A stretch of 64,000 nt of DNA from Flavobacteriia bacterium 40-80 (GTDB taxonomy: Bacteria; Bacteroidota; Bacteroidia; Flavobacteriales_D; Crocinitomicaceae): contig MKVF01000010.1 of assembly GCA_001899145.1 (NCBI GenBank), forward strand, positions 62,001-126,000, in the 5' to 3' direction. The notes beneath the pieces were generated by a model that was not told the origin of the DNA, made no database searches, and saw only the letters and a list, made by a program, of their open reading frames with translations. The position numbers and the translations under genes were made by a program. Below, one piece after another: positions 55,304-62,572 of this stretch. Position 1 is the first letter of the stretch; every line of letters begins with the position of its first letter.

Positions 55304-55342
55304 ATGTTTTATTTTATACGAGTATAGATAAAAAATCAATAG

Positions 55343-55375
55343 TTGATACGCATTCTACATTTTTTATTACTTTTG
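55343..55375 (+). promoter_or_regulatory. Promoter of the histidine operon
   Basis: TTG (55343-55345), 22-base spacer, TACTTTTG (55368-55375), an exact TAnnTTTG match. The expected transcript start is about 12 bases before the leader peptide ATG. Confidence 0.65.
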
Positions 55376-55393
55376 CCCCAAAGAAAGAAAAAA

Positions 55394-55456
55394 ATGAAAT
55401 TCACGTCTTTGCATCATCATCACCATCATTCTTGCACTCAGGCGAGCTGGTCGTGA
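55394..55456 (+). CDS. hisL: Histidine operon leader peptide
   Basis: A 20-codon reading frame, ATG 55394 to TGA 55456. After Met-Lys-Phe-Thr-Ser-Leu come six His codons in a row (CAT x3, CAC, CAT x2, 55412-55429), then SCTQASWS. Such a run in an open frame directly before hisG, under a good promoter, is the signature of a ribosome-stalling leader. When charged His-tRNA is scarce, the ribosome pauses on these codons. The start is preceded by an A-rich stretch typical of initiation in Bacteroidota. Confidence 0.88.
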   Translation: MKFTSLHHHHHHSCTQASWS

Positions 55457-55512
55457 TATATGTAAATTCATAAAAATATTACAAACCGTCTGAGTAAATC
55501 AGGCGGTTTTTT
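55404..55512 (+). promoter_or_regulatory. Transcription attenuator of the his operon (alternative helices)
   Basis: Four segments can pair in turn. Segment 1 CGTCT (55404-55408) pairs with AGGCG (55440-55444). Segment 2 ACTCAGGCG (55436-55444) pairs with segment 3 CGTCTGAGT (55487-55495), 9 bp with one wobble: the antiterminator. Segment 3 (55483-55493) pairs with segment 4 (55499-55509): the terminator. Helices 2:3 and 3:4 exclude each other. A ribosome stalled at the His codons leaves segment 2 free and lets 2:3 form; one that reaches the stop covers segment 2 and lets the terminator form. Confidence 0.82.
55483..55512 (+). terminator. Attenuator terminator hairpin
   Basis: AAACCGTCTGA (55483-55493) and TCAGGCGGTTT (55499-55509) form an 11-bp stem with one U-G pair, loop GTAAA, and Ts to 55512. 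It lies 61 bases before hisG. Confidence 0.88.
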
Positions 55513-55569
55513 CATTTCTATCATTTCCGTTCCGGTTTACTCAGACTCAAAAAATCAAAATTGACAGAG

Positions 55570-56427
55570 ATGAGTAAATTAAAAATTGCAGTACAGAAAA
55601 GCGGACGGTTAAGTGAAAAATCCCTGCAATTATTCGAAGAATGCGGCATAAAGACTTCCAACGGAACACGAAAACTCAAAGCCGAAGCATCAAATTTCCC
55701 GGTAGAATTTCTTTTCCTTCGTGACGATGATATTCCGCAATACGTAGAACAAGGCGTTGCAGATATCGGAATAATCGGCGAAAATGAAATATGGGAACAA
55801 AACAAAAACATCCGGATCATTCAGAAATTAGGATTTGCCGGCTGTAAAATGTCTCTGGCAATTCCGAAAGATGAAAATTATACCGGAATTAATTTCTTTA
55901 AAAACAAACGTATCGCCACGTCCTACCCGAATATTCTGACCCACTTTTTTTCAGAGAAAAACATTGCTGTTTCTATCGAGAAACTAAGTGGCAGCGTTGA
56001 AATTGCAACTGGAATTGGTTTGGCCGACGGTATTTTTGATATTGTCAGTACGGGAAGCACCCTATTGATGAACGGTTTAAAAGAAGTGGAAGTCATTACA
56101 AAAAGTGAAGCAGTGCTGATCTCTACTCCTTCTCTCCCACCCGACCGGAAGGAAATTTTAGAAAGGATCCTTTTTAGGATCAATGCCGTTAAACAAGGTT
56201 CCTCCAATAAATACATCCTGCTAAATGCTCCAAACGAATCTCTGGACGCTATTTCCGGTTTACTTCCCGGAATGAAATCACCGACGATATTGCCACTGGC
56301 AGAACCGGGTTGGAGCAGCTTACACTCCGTTGTTCAGGAAGAACAATTCTGGGATATAATCGACCAGCTGAAAAAGTTAGGTGCACAAGGAATATTAGTA
56401 TTACCAATCGAAAAAATGGTTATTTGA
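55570..56427 (+). CDS. hisG: ATP phosphoribosyltransferase, long form
   Basis: 285 residues from ATG 55570; an in-frame TTG at 55561 adds three residues. HisG joins ATP and PRPP, the first and feedback-inhibited step of histidine synthesis. The opening KLKIAVQKSGRLSEKSLQLFEECGIK, substrate loop IATSYPNILTHFF, the PRPP loop ATGIGLADGIFDIVSTGSTL, and a C-terminal regulatory domain (about 210-285) of the long form are present. First gene of the operon, after the attenuator. The hisD start follows 2 bases after its stop. Confidence 0.95.
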   Translation: MSKLKIAVQKSGRLSEKSLQLFEECGIKTSNGTRKLKAEASNFPVEFLFLRDDDIPQYVEQGVADIGIIGENEIWEQNKNIRIIQKLGFAGCKMSLAIPKDENYTGINFFKNKRIATSYPNILTHFFSEKNIAVSIEKLSGSVEIATGIGLADGIFDIVSTGSTLLMNGLKEVEVITKSEAVLISTPSLPPDRKEILERILFRINAVKQGSSNKYILLNAPNESLDAISGLLPGMKSPTILPLAEPGWSSLHSVVQEEQFWDIIDQLKKLGAQGILVLPIEKMVI

Positions 56428-56429
56428 TT

Positions 56430-57719
56430 ATGAAAACATATTTATACCCGGCTAAAAGCGAATGGTTTGATTTAATCAAACGCCCTGTAATGAATCTGAG
56501 CGACCTTTTTCCCGTCGTGCAATCAGTTTTTAATGCTGTACAACAAAGCGGAGATAATGCTCTCAAAGAGCTGACACTAAAATTTGACAAGGTACAATTA
56601 ACGCAACTCGCCGTTAGTCCGAAAGAGTTTCAAACTGCCATGAAAATAGTGTCTGAAGAATTAAAAAAGGCCATTCAGGTTGCATACAATAACATTCTCA
56701 CATTTCACGAATCACAGCGTGAAACGATCCAGGAAATTACAACGACAGATGGTGTCATCTGCTGGAGAGAAAGTCGTGCTATCGAAAAAGTCGGATTCTA
56801 CATTCCCGGAGGAACCGCTCCTCTCTTCTCTACTGTCTTAATGCTCGGAATCCCCGCAAAAATCGCCGGGTGTAAAGAGCTTGTTTTATGCACACCTCCT
56901 GATGCAAACGGCAATATTCACCCTGCTATTTTATACACCGCAGAACTTATTGGGATTACATCTGTTTTTAAAATCGGGGGAAGCCAGGCAATTGGAGCAC
57001 TGAGTTTCGGAACAGAATGTGTTCCCAAAGTTGATAAAATTTACGGTCCGGGAAATCAATACGTCATGGCAGCAAAGCAATTAGCTCAAAATTACGGCAT
57101 TGCTATTGATATGCCTGCCGGGCCAAGTGAAGTGGTAGTGATCGCTGATGAAACAGCTATTCCCGCTTTTGTTGCGGCCGATTTGTTATCGCAGGCAGAA
57201 CACGGAACGGACAGCCAGGTGATTTTACTAACCAATTCTGAAAAAGTCGCCGATAATATTTCAAAAGAAATCGATTTCCAATTAGAAAAATTACCCCGAA
57301 AAGAATTAGCCGGTTCATCTCTGAACAACAGCAAAGTCATTGTCTTTAAATCCATTGAAGAATGTCTGGAATTTAGCAATTTATATGCTCCGGAACATTT
57401 AATTCTTGCAGTAGCTAATCAACGGTTTTATACAGGGAAAATCAGTAATGCCGGTTCTGTATTTCTCGGAAATTACAGTTGTGAAAGTGCCGGAGATTAC
57501 GCCAGTGGAACCAATCATACGCTGCCCACTAACGGTTATGCCAAAGCATATAGCGGCGTTTCATTGGATAGTTTCGTAAAAAAAATAACCTTTCAGGAAG
57601 TCAGCGAAACCGGAATTCAGAATATTGGAAAAGCAATCGAACTGATGGCGGAAGCAGAGCAATTAGATGCACATAAAAATGCTGTGACTATCCGGTTAAA
57701 TTATTTATCAAAACACTAA
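56430..57719 (+). CDS. hisD: Histidinol dehydrogenase
   Basis: 429 residues from ATG 56430. HisD oxidises histidinol to histidine in two NAD-dependent steps. The signature VGFYIPGGTAPLFSTVLMLGIPAKIAGCKE and KIYGPGNQYVMAAKQ, with the zinc ligands in LSQAEHGTDSQ and later GTNHTLPT, are present. Length is normal. It follows hisG after 2 bases. Confidence 0.97.
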   Translation: MKTYLYPAKSEWFDLIKRPVMNLSDLFPVVQSVFNAVQQSGDNALKELTLKFDKVQLTQLAVSPKEFQTAMKIVSEELKKAIQVAYNNILTFHESQRETIQEITTTDGVICWRESRAIEKVGFYIPGGTAPLFSTVLMLGIPAKIAGCKELVLCTPPDANGNIHPAILYTAELIGITSVFKIGGSQAIGALSFGTECVPKVDKIYGPGNQYVMAAKQLAQNYGIAIDMPAGPSEVVVIADETAIPAFVAADLLSQAEHGTDSQVILLTNSEKVADNISKEIDFQLEKLPRKELAGSSLNNSKVIVFKSIEECLEFSNLYAPEHLILAVANQRFYTGKISNAGSVFLGNYSCESAGDYASGTNHTLPTNGYAKAYSGVSLDSFVKKITFQEVSETGIQNIGKAIELMAEAEQLDAHKNAVTIRLNYLSKH

Positions 57720-57722
57720 ATT

Positions 57723-58739
57723 ATGATTCAGCAACTTGTCAGAAAAAACATTCGAAATCTTGTACCCTACAGCAGTGCACGTGATGAATTTAAGGGAAAT
57801 GATGCGGTTTTTTTAGATGCAAATGAAAATCCGTTTGGGAAACTCAACCGCTACCCGGATCCTTACCAGCGGGAGCTGAAATTTTTGCTCTCAGAAGAAA
57901 AAAACATTCCGGAAAACAACATTTTTATCGGGAACGGAAGTGACGAAGTCATTGATTTGACGCTGCGGATTTTTTGTGAACCACAACAGGATAAAATACT
58001 CATCTGCCCTCCTACTTACGGCATGTACGAAGTAAGTGCGGACATCAATAACATCAAAACAATTAAAGTACCATTGACAGACGATTTTCAATTAGATATT
58101 CCAACTGTTTTAGAGAGAATAAAAACAGAACCCGTAAAAGTCGTTTTTCTTTGTTCTCCGAATAATCCAACAGGGAACTCCCTGAATGACATTGATGTGC
58201 TACTTGAAAAATTCAACGGAATTGTTGTAGTGGATGAAGCGTACATTGACTTCAGTGAACGACAATCGTATCTTCGGAAAATAAAAGACTATCCCAATCT
58301 GATTGTTTCTCAAACTTTCAGCAAAGCGTGGGGATTGGCTGGTGCACGTGTCGGATTGGCTTATGCAACAGAAGAAATTATTGCAGTTTTCAATCGTGTA
58401 AAGCCTCCTTACAACATCAGTCAACTCAACCAGCAGGCAGCGATCGAAACATTGAAAAACAAGCCGGAATTTAAACAGAATCTCACCACTATTCTTTCTG
58501 AAAGAAAACGACTTGCTGATGAATTACAGCAGCTCGATTTTATTCAGAAAATCTATGCGACAGATGCAAATTTCATACTCGTAAAGATTCCGGATGCGAC
58601 AGAAGTCTACCAGCAATTAGTCTGTCAAAGAATCATTACCCGAAACAGAAGCTCTGTCATTTCTGACTGTATCCGGATTACAATCGGAACGCCGGAAGAA
58701 AACGATTTATTAATTAACGAATTAAAAAAACACTCATGA
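57723..58739 (+). CDS. hisC: Histidinol-phosphate aminotransferase
   Basis: 338 residues. PLP enzyme that converts imidazole acetol-phosphate to histidinol-phosphate. The lysine that holds PLP is in [43 protein letters not shown] and VVDEAYIDF match the family. It follows hisD by 3 bases and overlaps hisB by 4 bases. Confidence 0.95.
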
Positions 58740-59827
58740 AAAAAGTACTTTTTATCGACCGGGATGGCATATTAATCATTGAACCGCCAGTTGATTTTCA
58801 GGTGGACAGTCTGGAAAAACTGGAGTTCTATCCCTGTGTTTTTCAATACCTGTCGAAAATAGCTGTGGAACTGGATTATGAACTGGTAATGGTCACCAAT
58901 CAGGATGGGTTGGGAACTGATTCCTTTCCGGAAGAAACATTCTGGCCGGCACAAAACAAACTGATTCAGGCGTTCAAAAATGAAGGGATTGAATTTTCAG
59001 AAATACTGATAGACAAATCATTTCCACACGAAAATTTACCGACACGAAAACCCGGAACAGGTATGCTCCTGCATTATCAAAAGGGAAATTACGACTTGGA
59101 AAATTCCTATGTAATCGGTGATCGGCTGACCGATGTGCAACTGGCGAAAAATCTGGGTGCAAAAGCTATATTTATCGGAAAAGAGGAATGTCAGGATGCA
59201 GCAATTACCACGTTAAACTGGAGTGACATCTATACGTTTCTATCTTCTCAACCACGAAAAGGAAAGGTTGTCCGAAGAACAAAAGAAACCGATATTTCCA
59301 TTGAAATAAACCTTGACGGAACAGGAAAGAGTACGATTTCAACCGGTTTAGCTTTCTTTGACCACATGCTGGAACAAATAGCCAAACATGGGAAAATAGA
59401 TTTAAGCATTACAGTAGATGGAGACTTACAAGTGGATGAACATCATACAGTTGAAGATACTGCTTTGGCTCTGGGAGAAACTTTTCTTCAGGCGCTTGGA
59501 AGTAAAAAAGGAATTGAACGTTATGGCTTTTTATTACCAATGGATGACTGCCTTGCTCAGGTAGCCATTGATTTAGGAGGTCGCCCTTGGATTGTTTGGG
59601 ATGCGGAATTTAAACGTGAAAAGATTGGAGATGTACCAACGGAATTGTTTTTTCACTTTTTCAAATCGTTTAGCGACACAGCCAAATGCAATTTAAACAT
59701 CAAAGCTGAAGGAACAAACGAGCACCACAAAATAGAAGCCATCTTTAAAGCATTTGCAAAAGCTATCAAAATGGCCGTTCAGAAAACCGGAGATTTTTCC
59801 ATCCCAAGCACAAAAGGAATACTATGA
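58736..59827 (+). CDS. hisB: Bifunctional histidinol-phosphatase / imidazoleglycerol-phosphate dehydratase
   Basis: 363 residues, a natural fusion. The first about 165 residues are a HAD phosphatase ([13 protein letters not shown] with Asp8 and Asp10; [29 protein letters not shown]). From about 180 the dehydratase follows with its duplicated metal sites ([45 protein letters not shown]). The fused form is also known in enterobacteria and in Bacteroidota. Overlaps hisC and hisH by 4 bases each. Confidence 0.96.
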
Positions 59828-60408
59828 TTGCAATTATTGATTACAACGCAGGCAATACGACTTCTGTTAAAAATGCCATCGAACGACTGGGATTTCCCGC
59901 TATTGTTACCAACGATCCTGAACGTATTAAACGTGCGGATAAGGTGATTTTTCCCGGTGTTGGCGAAGCGAGTACCGCAATGAAATTTCTGAAAGAAAAG
60001 CAACTGGATAAAGTAATTACTTCTTTGAAACAGCCCGTTTTAGGAATCTGTCTCGGTCAACAGCTCTTGTGCAGTTTTTCAGAGGAAGGAACCACCGAAT
60101 GCCTGGGGATTTTCCCTGTGAATGTCAAATGTTTTCCTGCAACTGATTTAGTACCTCACATTGGATGGAACAATTTACAGAATATGAAATCCGGATTATT
60201 TGAAGAAATACAAATAACAGATGATGTATATTTTGTTCACAGCTACTATGCGGAATTAAGTGATTATACCATAGCGACATGTGATTATATTTTACCTTAC
60301 AGCGCAGCAATGAAAAAAGACAATTTTTATGCCGTTCAGTTTCATCCTGAAAAATCAGCTACGGTCGGAGAACAGATTTTGAGAAACTTTTTGGTCAATA
60401 CTGAATGA
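59824..60408 (+). CDS. hisH: Imidazoleglycerol-phosphate synthase, glutaminase subunit
   Basis: 194 residues, class I glutamine amidotransferase that supplies ammonia to HisF. The nucleophile Cys76 is in [13 protein letters not shown], and His and Glu of the triad are in AVQFHPEKS near 178-182. It overlaps hisB by 4 bases. Unlike other junctions in the operon, the next gene is 93 bases away, across a tandem repeat. Confidence 0.95.
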
Positions 60409-60424
60409 TGAGTATTGAATAATG

Positions 60425-60495
60425 GATGGGTATGCCCATCAAATTCAAAATTCAAAATTCAAAATTCAAAATTCAAAATTCAAAATTCAAAATTC
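60425..60495. repeat. Hairpin and heptamer tandem repeat between hisH and hisA
   Basis: First a hairpin GATGGG-TATG-CCCATC (60425-60440), then about eight direct copies of AAAATTC, 60441-60495 (the first is one base short). The array ends five to seven As before the hisA ATG at 60502. Confidence 0.9.
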
Positions 60496-60501
60496 AAAAA
60501 A

Positions 60502-61221
60502 ATGAAAATTATACCCGCAATAGACATCATCAACGGAAAGTGTGTCCGCCTGACGAAAGGTGACTACAGCCAACAAAAAACATACAACGAACATCCGCTG
60601 GAAGTGGCAAGACAATTTGAAGATGCAGGCCTCTCCTACTTGCATTTAGTAGATCTGGACGGAGCAAAAAACGGAAAAATCACCAATTACAAAGTATTGG
60701 AAACGCTTGCTTCAAAAACAACACTTCAAATTGATTTTGGTGGCGGCCTGAAAACAGATGCCGATCTGAAAATTGCTTTTGAAAGCGGGGCCAGACAAGT
60801 GACCGGAGGTAGTATTGCTGTTAAAAATCCGGAACTTTTTGAAAACTGGATAACACAATATGGAGGAGAGAAAATTATTCTTGGATCGGATGTAATTGAT
60901 GGAAAAATAGCAACCAATGCCTGGCAGTCGAGTTCTGAAAAAAACGTGCTGGAGTTTATCGCTGATTATTTAAGCAAAGGTATTCTGTACACGATCTGCA
61001 CGGACGTTTCAAAAGACGGAATGCTGCAAGGACCGTCAACAGAACTGTATCGATCCATTTTAGAGCATACACCTGAAATAAAACTCATTGCAAGTGGCGG
61101 AATAGCAACCCTTTCTGATGTAATAACCATGCAGGAAATCGGCTGTGAAGGTGTCATTATCGGAAAAGCCATTTATGAAAATAAAATCAGTTTAAAAGAA
61201 CTAAGTCAACTTGTATGTTAA
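60502..61221 (+). CDS. hisA: Phosphoribosylformimino-AICAR isomerase (ProFAR isomerase)
   Basis: 239 residues from ATG 60502. I reject the longer in-frame start at 60415 because it would translate the heptamer repeat into junk. [22 protein letters not shown] has catalytic Asp8 and the classic opening, [15 protein letters not shown] the phosphate loop, and [14 protein letters not shown] the second half with its catalytic Asp. It is a half-barrel duplication like HisF. Overlaps hisF by 7 bases. Confidence 0.95.
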
Positions 61222-61973
61222 AGAAACGAATCATTCCCTGCCTGGATATCAAAGATGGAAGAACCGTCAAAGGAGTCAATTTTACAGAACTTCGTGATGC
61301 CGGAGATCCGGTAGAACTGGCAAAACGTTATGTGCAGGAAGGTGCGGACGAACTGGTGTTTCTGGATATTACAGCAACGGTAGAAAAACGAAAAACACTG
61401 ACGGAATTGATCGAACGAATTGCCAGAGAAATCAATATTCCGTTTACGGTTGGCGGTGGCATCAACTCGTTGGAAGATGCCAAAGCTGTAATCAATGCAG
61501 GTGCAGATAAAGTCAGCATCAATTCCTCTGCTGTAAAAAATCCGGAACTGATTACCCAGATTGCACAGGAATTTGGCAATCAGTGTGTCGTTGTTGCCAT
61601 TGATTTTAAATCGGATGAAGGTGGTGATTTTGTTTATGTGAAAGGTGGTTCTGAAAAAACAAACCTAAAACTGCTCGATTGGGCAAAAGAAGTCGTATTA
61701 CTTGGAGCTGGAGAAATTTTATTGACTTCCATGAATCACGACGGAACGAAAAATGGCTTCTCGCTTGAACAAGTTGCTTTATTGAGCAGTGAACTGTCTA
61801 TTCCCGTGATTGCATCAGGCGGTGCAGGAAAAACGGAACATTTCATTGAATTATTTCAACAAACACAAGCAAGCGCAGGATTGGCAGCCAGTATTTTTCA
61901 CTTTGAAGAAATTACGATCGGCGATTTAAAACAAGAATTGTCAAATCATAAAATCCAGGTAAGATGTCTGTAA
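61215..61973 (+). CDS. hisF: Imidazoleglycerol-phosphate synthase, cyclase subunit
   Basis: 252 residues. Cyclises with ammonia from HisH to imidazoleglycerol-phosphate and [28 protein letters not shown] (catalytic Asp11), [37 protein letters not shown] (Asp near 130) and [11 protein letters not shown] match the family. Overlaps hisA by 7 and hisIE by 10 bases. Confidence 0.96.
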
Positions 61974-62572
61974 ATTTCAGTAAATCAGTATTAATTCCCG
62001 TAATCATTCAGGACGAAACAACGTTGCAGGTGCTGATGCTGGGATACATGAACGAAGAAGCTTTTGAAAAAACAAAAGCTGAAGGAAAAGTCACGTTTTT
62101 CAGCCGAAGTAAAAACCGTTTGTGGACAAAAGGCGAAACATCCGGAAACTTTTTATGGGTAAAAAGCATCGCCATCGACTGCGATCAGGATACCATTCTC
62201 ATCAAGGCGAAACCGGAAGGAGTCGTTTGTCACACAGGAACAACTTCCTGCTTCAATAACGACCAGTCAAAAGGTTTTGTTTATCAGCTGCAACAAATCA
62301 TTTCCGATAAAATCGGCAGTAATGACGAACATTCTTACACCAATAAATTATTCCGAAGAGGAATCAATAAAGTTGCCCAAAAAGTAGGTGAAGAAGCGGT
62401 TGAAGTGGTTATTGAAGCAAAAGATAACAACGATGAGCTATTCAAAAATGAAGCAGCGGATTTACTGTATCATTATTTGATTTTATTGGAAGCAAAAGGG
62501 GTTAGATTGGAAGATATTGAAGAGGTGTTGAAGGGAAGGAATGGGATTAAAAAGAAAGCCCGAAAGACGTAA
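61964..62572 (+). CDS. hisIE: Bifunctional phosphoribosyl-AMP cyclohydrolase / phosphoribosyl-ATP pyrophosphatase
   Basis: 202 residues. N-terminal PRA-CH domain with [38 protein letters not shown] and the zinc site DCDQDT...[10 protein letters not shown]-terminal PRA-PH domain from about 110 ([30 protein letters not shown]...[17 protein letters not shown]). Carries out steps 2 and 3 of histidine synthesis. Last gene of the run; no clear terminator before the convergent gene 27 bases on. Confidence 0.96.

Follow-up and report, generated by a model that had tools for sequence, protein, structure and literature searches.

The region upstream of the histidine operon in this Bacteroidota genome raises the question of whether a short reading frame rich in His codons, and an intrinsic terminator that follows it, together control the operon. 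Both are located between hisG and a divergent minus-strand ORF (start near 55309) that has no NCBIfam match. Our answer, with a probability of roughly 0.9, is that the element is a ribosome-mediated transcription attenuator of the his operon, one that would respond to histidine in the cell. This reading is strongly supported by conservation of the element, by covariation of its helices and by modelling of ribosome positions. The features are collected in Table 1, numbered by position in the window, the 64-kb stretch of DNA that was analysed.

Table 1. The his leader, its alternative RNA segments and the operon behind it, in window coordinates
Feature	Position	Strand	Remark
-33 element TTG	55343-55345	+	Bacteroidota-type promoter; 22 nt 5' of -7 box
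-7 element TACTTTTG (TAnnTTTG)	55368-55375	+	recurs in homologous leaders
Leader ORF, MKFTSLHHHHHHSCTQASWS then stop (20 codons)	55394-55456	+	orthologous His-run ORF in 71/80 hisG loci
Six consecutive His control codons	55412-55429	+	homologues have 3-6 His; CAT and CAC both used
Protector (anti-antiterminator) hairpin	55408-55466	+	apex CTTGC 55431-55435 with GCGAG 55442-55446
Segment 2, antiterminator 5' strand ACTCAGGCG	55436-55444	+	pairs with segment 3
Segment 3 CGTCTGAGT	55487-55495	+	common to antiterminator, terminator and 3:5 helix
Intrinsic terminator (segments 3:4)	55483-55512	+	stem 55483-55493 / 55499-55509; T-run to 55512
Segment 5 TTTACTCAGAC	55536-55546	+	complementary to 55488-55498 and to hisG start 55571-55578
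Segment 6, TGAGTAAAT of hisG start (AUGAGUAAA)	55571-55579	+	exact repeat in terminator region 55491-55499
hisG, first gene of operon (ATG 55570)	55570-56427	+	TIGR00070 and TIGR03455 above cut-off
hisD, hisC, hisB (bifunctional), hisH, hisA, hisF, hisIE	56430-62572	+	each above NCBIfam cut-off

The original prediction for this locus described a Bacteroidota-type promoter followed by a 20-codon frame with six His codons in a row, and both are indeed present. The -33 TTG element was called from the Bacteroidota promoter consensus, and the -7 motif TAnnTTTG occurs at most 50 nt upstream in 97 of 140 homologous leaders where 4.2 are expected, with a TTG located 14-27 nt from the box in 60 of these 97 promoters. 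Transcription is predicted to begin just 5' of the leader ORF. The 12-nt pattern CAYCAYCAYCAY has three overlapping matches in the 64-kb window, all of them inside the His run, as compared to 0.05 expected from shuffling, and the leader RNA (55380-55515) folds with a z-score of -4.2. The terminator is located 60 nt 5' of a complete hisGDCBHAF(IE) operon. In regards to the operon itself (56310-62572), HisB is a bifunctional histidinol-phosphatase/IGP dehydratase and HisIE is fused, and there is a short tandem repeat between hisH and hisA (60410-60505) that is readable as protein in one frame.

Conservation was analyzed in 80 loci of other genomes that were obtained by searching GTDB genome contigs with HisG. 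A short His-run ORF together with a CGTCTGA-type terminator is present 5' of hisG in 71 of these loci, so the expectation that relatives would keep the His run was borne out. The leader peptides have a consensus close to M..x.LHHHH(F)H(T)CxQA(S/R), their His codons vary synonymously (CAT 299, CAC 32), and gaps in the first 50 columns of the alignment (A1) keep the frame, the one single-column gap run being an insertion in locus L057. This frame conservation suggests that the leader is translated. Gln-Ala is nearly always encoded by CAGGCG, as expected if selection acts there on RNA pairing and not on the peptide. The exceptions among the 80 loci include one at a contig end (L047), one with a stretch of N (L027), three that have a different conserved leader (L006, L012 and L015), and L076. 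The latter locus keeps the terminator and is missing the His leader, either because the sensor was lost naturally or because the assembly is chimeric. The different leader of the three loci is located ~170 nt 5' of hisG with a shared ACCC..GGGTGTTATT hairpin that adjoins hisG, and showed neither a His leader nor an Rfam match.

The alternative helices were evaluated in the same alignment. In the window, helix 2:3 consists of nine pairs including one G-U, and helix 3:4 forms an 11-bp terminator stem that runs into the T-run, both as originally predicted. Both helices also covary among relatives. Specifically, 95.5% of the helix 3:4 cells in alignment A1 are paired, with four pairs changed on both sides and 30 cells that have both sides changed versus 8.1 in shuffles, and 86.8% of the helix 2:3 cells are paired, with 24 such double changes versus 11.2, although these cell counts overstate the number of independent events since the loci were selected for a similar hisG and include many related rows. 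Segment 2 additionally prefers its own segment 3 over that of other loci (mean -12.1 versus -10.6 kcal/mol), with 0 of 5000 permutations as good in a test that uses no fixed pair columns. One proposed pairing did not survive the comparison, namely that of a segment 1 (55404-55408) with 55440-55444, for which 32.9% of cells are paired among 72 aligned loci, a value that falls within the 29-38% given by slid controls. The role of anti-antiterminator falls instead to a long hairpin that uses the run of His codons as its 5' strand and extends across the stop codon with its 3' strand. The apex of this hairpin is paired in 84.1% of cells and conceals part of segment 2. The folding z-score of this protector hairpin is below -1 in 71 of 72 homologues and below -2 in 62 of them, with a mean of -3.3. 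Note that the hairpin is seen by per-sequence folding, and that RNAalifold on alignment A1 recovered the terminator alone.

The dependence of these helices on translation was modelled by folding, for every leader, the RNA between the front edge of the ribosome (first A-site base + 13) and the terminator loop, with segment 4 not yet made. With the ribosome at any of the first three His codons, the probability of the antiterminator, P(2:3), has a mean of 0.98 and exceeds 0.5 in all 72 loci. Across these loci it is 0.93 at the fourth His, falls to a median of 0.08 when no ribosome is present and drops to 0 at the stop codon, with the last value resulting from geometry and from the assumed ribosome footprint. 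The corresponding values in the window are 0.93 for His1 through His5, 0.38 at His6, 0.27 without a ribosome and 0 at the stop. In this folding model a ribosome at the control codons frees segment 2 and a ribosome at the stop codon hides it, which agrees with what had been claimed from the placement of the stop codon, the latter half again following from the assumed footprint. The modelled on/off behavior is as expected of an attenuator, including default termination without leader translation.

The locus has the parts of a classical attenuator, which are a His-rich leader ORF in front of a biosynthetic operon, an intrinsic terminator, and a covarying antiterminator that is exclusive with it. 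When His-tRNA is scarce, a ribosome would stall at the first His codons and open the hairpin whose 5' strand these codons form, leaving segment 2 free. Pairing of 2:3 would then block the terminator and allow transcription of hisGDCBHAF(IE). Without leader translation the long hairpin would hide segment 2, making termination the default.

The spacer between terminator and hisG contains additional complementarity that involves segment 3 and that was not part of the original prediction. The terminator loop, TGAGTAAA, is a copy of the hisG start (aTGAGTAAA). Segment 5 is perfectly complementary to segment 3 plus this loop (GTCTGAGTAAA, 55488-55498), and the left part of segment 5 is complementary to the hisG start. 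Counting G-U as a pair, 10 or more of the 13 positions of 3:5 are paired in 52 of 71 loci, versus 10% of shuffled spacers. For 5:6 in the same register, 7 or more of 9 positions are paired in 44 of these loci. The two helices occur together in 38 of the 71 loci as compared to 4.4% of shuffled spacers, and in 20 of 26 dereplicated loci from an independent whole-genome sample as compared to 7% in shuffles. Segment 5 also follows its own partners. Among 38 dereplicated loci, permuted partners were as good in 0 of 5000 trials for 3:5 and in 2 of 5000 for 5:6, and for the 26 independent loci these numbers were 0 and 3 of 5000. When the independent set was parsed with a poorer search pattern for the hisG start, which yielded 11 loci, 3:5 beat permutation and 5:6 did not. 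At the level of individual loci, segment 5 tracks the hisG start where the loop differs (L010, L011, L022, L080 and L139), and it tracks segment 3 in loci where segment 3 becomes GTTTGAG (L042, L072 and L139). Comparison of the loci supports both the 3:5 and the 5:6 pairing.

This tracking across lineages, together with the position of segment 5, mostly 13-24 nt 5' of the AUG, argues against a plain transcription attenuator in which segments 5 and 6 are non-regulatory and in which the loop resembles the hisG start through shared ancestry or because AUGAGUAAA starts are common. We consider such a plain attenuator unlikely, even though most Dysgonomonadaceae and Bacteroidales loci work without segments 5 and 6, and even though equilibrium folding does not favor 3:5 in the full-length RNA. 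Specifically, the read-through RNA folds as 3:4 plus 5:6, with P(5:6) averaging 0.77-0.79 in the 38 loci and reaching 0.94-0.95 in the window, so that in this model the hisG start is concealed as long as the terminator hairpin is present. Full-length RNA adopts this fold at equilibrium whatever the ribosome position, and 5:6 is favored over 3:5 when segment 2 is free. The 3:5 helix becomes more probable (mean 0.65) solely if neither segment 4 nor segment 2 is available, and this gain is not seen in the window. Since equilibrium favors 5:6, a second layer of control needs kinetic folding to operate in the direction proposed here. Segment 5 also cannot alter the termination event in cis, as it is transcribed after the terminator.

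Our tentative proposal, for which the odds are in our estimate nearly balanced, is a dual-level histidine switch in which one leader sets both transcription termination and hisG translation. Under histidine-replete conditions the terminator would form and segment 5 would be free to pair with the hisG start, so that leaked transcripts would translate hisG poorly. When segment 3 is outside of the terminator, its loop, as a copy of the hisG start, could capture segment 5. The loop would thus compete with the hisG start for the anti-start segment and relay the state of segment 3 to a start codon located 60-80 nt downstream, and during starvation 3:5 would be a short-lived open state that arises through folding kinetics. 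The direction and strength of hisG translational control by segments 5 and 6 are inferred. If they act as proposed, a single RNA would couple ribosome position both to termination and to start-codon access by means of a start-imitating loop. A trans-acting role of the released leader RNA was set aside, since such a role would expose the hisG start at high histidine, which is the wrong direction.

The distribution of His leaders was analyzed further in 100 hisG upstream regions from 198 genomes that are spread over the phylum. A short ORF with clustered His codons is present in 69 of the 100 regions, versus 1 on the reverse strand and 1.9 in shuffles, indicating that about two thirds of the sampled Bacteroidota hisG regions have a His-codon leader that is unannotated by Rfam. 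Families f14-f16, f18-f20, f26 and f29 of this sample showed no detectable leader. The terminators differ in sequence among families, with CGTCTGAG or CGTTTGAG in f5, f6 and part of f35, GGCTTACC in f4 and the similar GGCTTGCC in part of f8, CCCCGGC in f17 and part of f35, and other sequences in f7. In family f24, all 16 of 16 loci have a leader with 4-11 His codons that starts a few nt after the -7 box where this box is clear, and none showed a detectable intrinsic terminator between leader and hisG, the spacer being unstructured and G-poor. We view it as possible, at slightly less than even chances, that a dual-level switch belongs to a phylum-wide pattern in which the His leader is kept and the output part is swapped, with f24 seemingly lacking an intrinsic terminator.

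Regulation in f24 is possibly Rho-dependent or translational attenuation, and this family is what lends weight to an explanation of the window locus in which the His-rich ORF is translated and acts through Rho or translational coupling and not through an intrinsic terminator. Such a route is very improbable for the window, given that the window and 71 homologues keep an 11-bp terminator with a T-run under strong covariation, and that segment 2 is tuned to segment 3. As to details of f24 (loci L190-L198 and L212-L218), most leaders have 9-11 His codons and often a GTG start located 4-5 nt after TAnnTTTG, making them near-leaderless, and the spacers of 57-83 nt contain ~5% G and do not fold. Type-A spacers contain 11.5% G, so the depletion is stronger in f24, and it may partly reflect the G-poor start regions of the phylum.

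Returning to the ribosome-mediated attenuator, no Rfam family recognizes the element at its gathering score. The best sub-threshold match in the window is RF00514 His_leader at 26.6 bits of the 49 needed, and with 14 other loci this family reached at best 33.9 bits (L131), also below 49. A histidine-binding riboswitch or His T-box, in place of a ribosome sensor, is a thought prompted by some Firmicutes his operons that use T-boxes (PMC9413887). It has hardly any likelihood for this locus, as no Rfam T-box or riboswitch matches in the window at gathering score and as the conserved feature is a His reading frame in which indels keep the frame and His codons vary synonymously. Finally, a chance combination of a His run with a terminator that is unrelated to it and ends the upstream region, conceivable inasmuch as such terminators are common in Bacteroidota, is refuted by conservation (71/80 loci, and 69/100 in the phylum sample), by 2:3 and 3:4 covariation, by ribosome-position folding and by the window-unique His run, leaving it practically no probability. 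When this genome was searched with covariance model R1 for attenuators of other amino acids, the weaker matches that were inspected (at most 32 bits) are plain terminators downstream of genes, and for this reason only strong R1 matches are meaningful.

The abstract of Vitreschak et al. 2004 (FEMS Microbiol Lett 234:357) reportedly mentions attenuators in Bacteroidetes/Chlorobi, and that study may already have predicted some his attenuators of Bacteroidota. The class of mechanism is a classical one. The element is like the enterobacterial his attenuator (hisL, RF00514) in having a His-codon run in a short leader ORF, exclusive antiterminator and terminator helices, the same stop placement and hisG as first gene (PMC1183508 and general knowledge). 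However, it has three alternative helices without the extra hairpin described there (PMC1183508), its His codons constitute the 5' strand of the protector, its loop copies the hisG start, and it has an anti-start segment 5. The earlier assertion that this locus follows the enterobacterial principle holds for the logic, with no sequence relation at the threshold of RF00514. The simple 1:2, 2:3, 3:4 arrangement is shared with E. coli trpL, from which the element differs in the amino acid sensed, in segments 5 and 6, and in a very short 5' UTR with a Bacteroidota promoter.

Regarding reports outside of the enterobacteria, a 2010 study stated that, to its authors' knowledge, only in Proteobacteria and Actinobacteria had leader-peptide systems been demonstrated (PMC2965389), and a 2022 comparison named his RNA attenuators for Proteobacteria and added some in Firmicutes (PMC9413887). 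The latter, in the Bacillus cereus group, Eubacteriales and Erysipelotrichales, are alike in having a His-run leader with terminator and antiterminator but belong to a different phylum (PMC9413887). In the same phylum as our locus, a transcription start map of Flavobacterium psychrophilum gave clues to leader-peptide attenuation at amino-acid operons; the proposed mechanism is the same, and the main text of that study names neither the his operon nor a structure (PMC9723704). The Bacteroid-trp RNA motif (RF01692) is a candidate cis-regulatory RNA of Bacteroidetes that is listed as not a riboswitch (PMC2864571). It also shares the phylum but had no match in this whole genome at E up to 1. Extra pairing segments such as 5 and 6 that reach the hisG start were not found described in the searchable literature. 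A Bacteroidota his attenuator in which the control codons also serve as the strand of the protector, and in which the terminator loop would imitate the hisG start, appears to be new and is well supported by the sequence comparisons.

Two minor observations concern the genome and the phylum sample. Despite a complete his operon, this genome (G000, 99.7% complete) has no match to IlvD (PF00920) or to homoserine dehydrogenase (PF00742), indicating that the organism is probably auxotrophic for several other amino acids. Lastly, in family f3 (L119-L123) the His codons form a hairpin, for example CATCGCC/GGCGATATG, and the terminator-like sequences are weak and A+T-rich.
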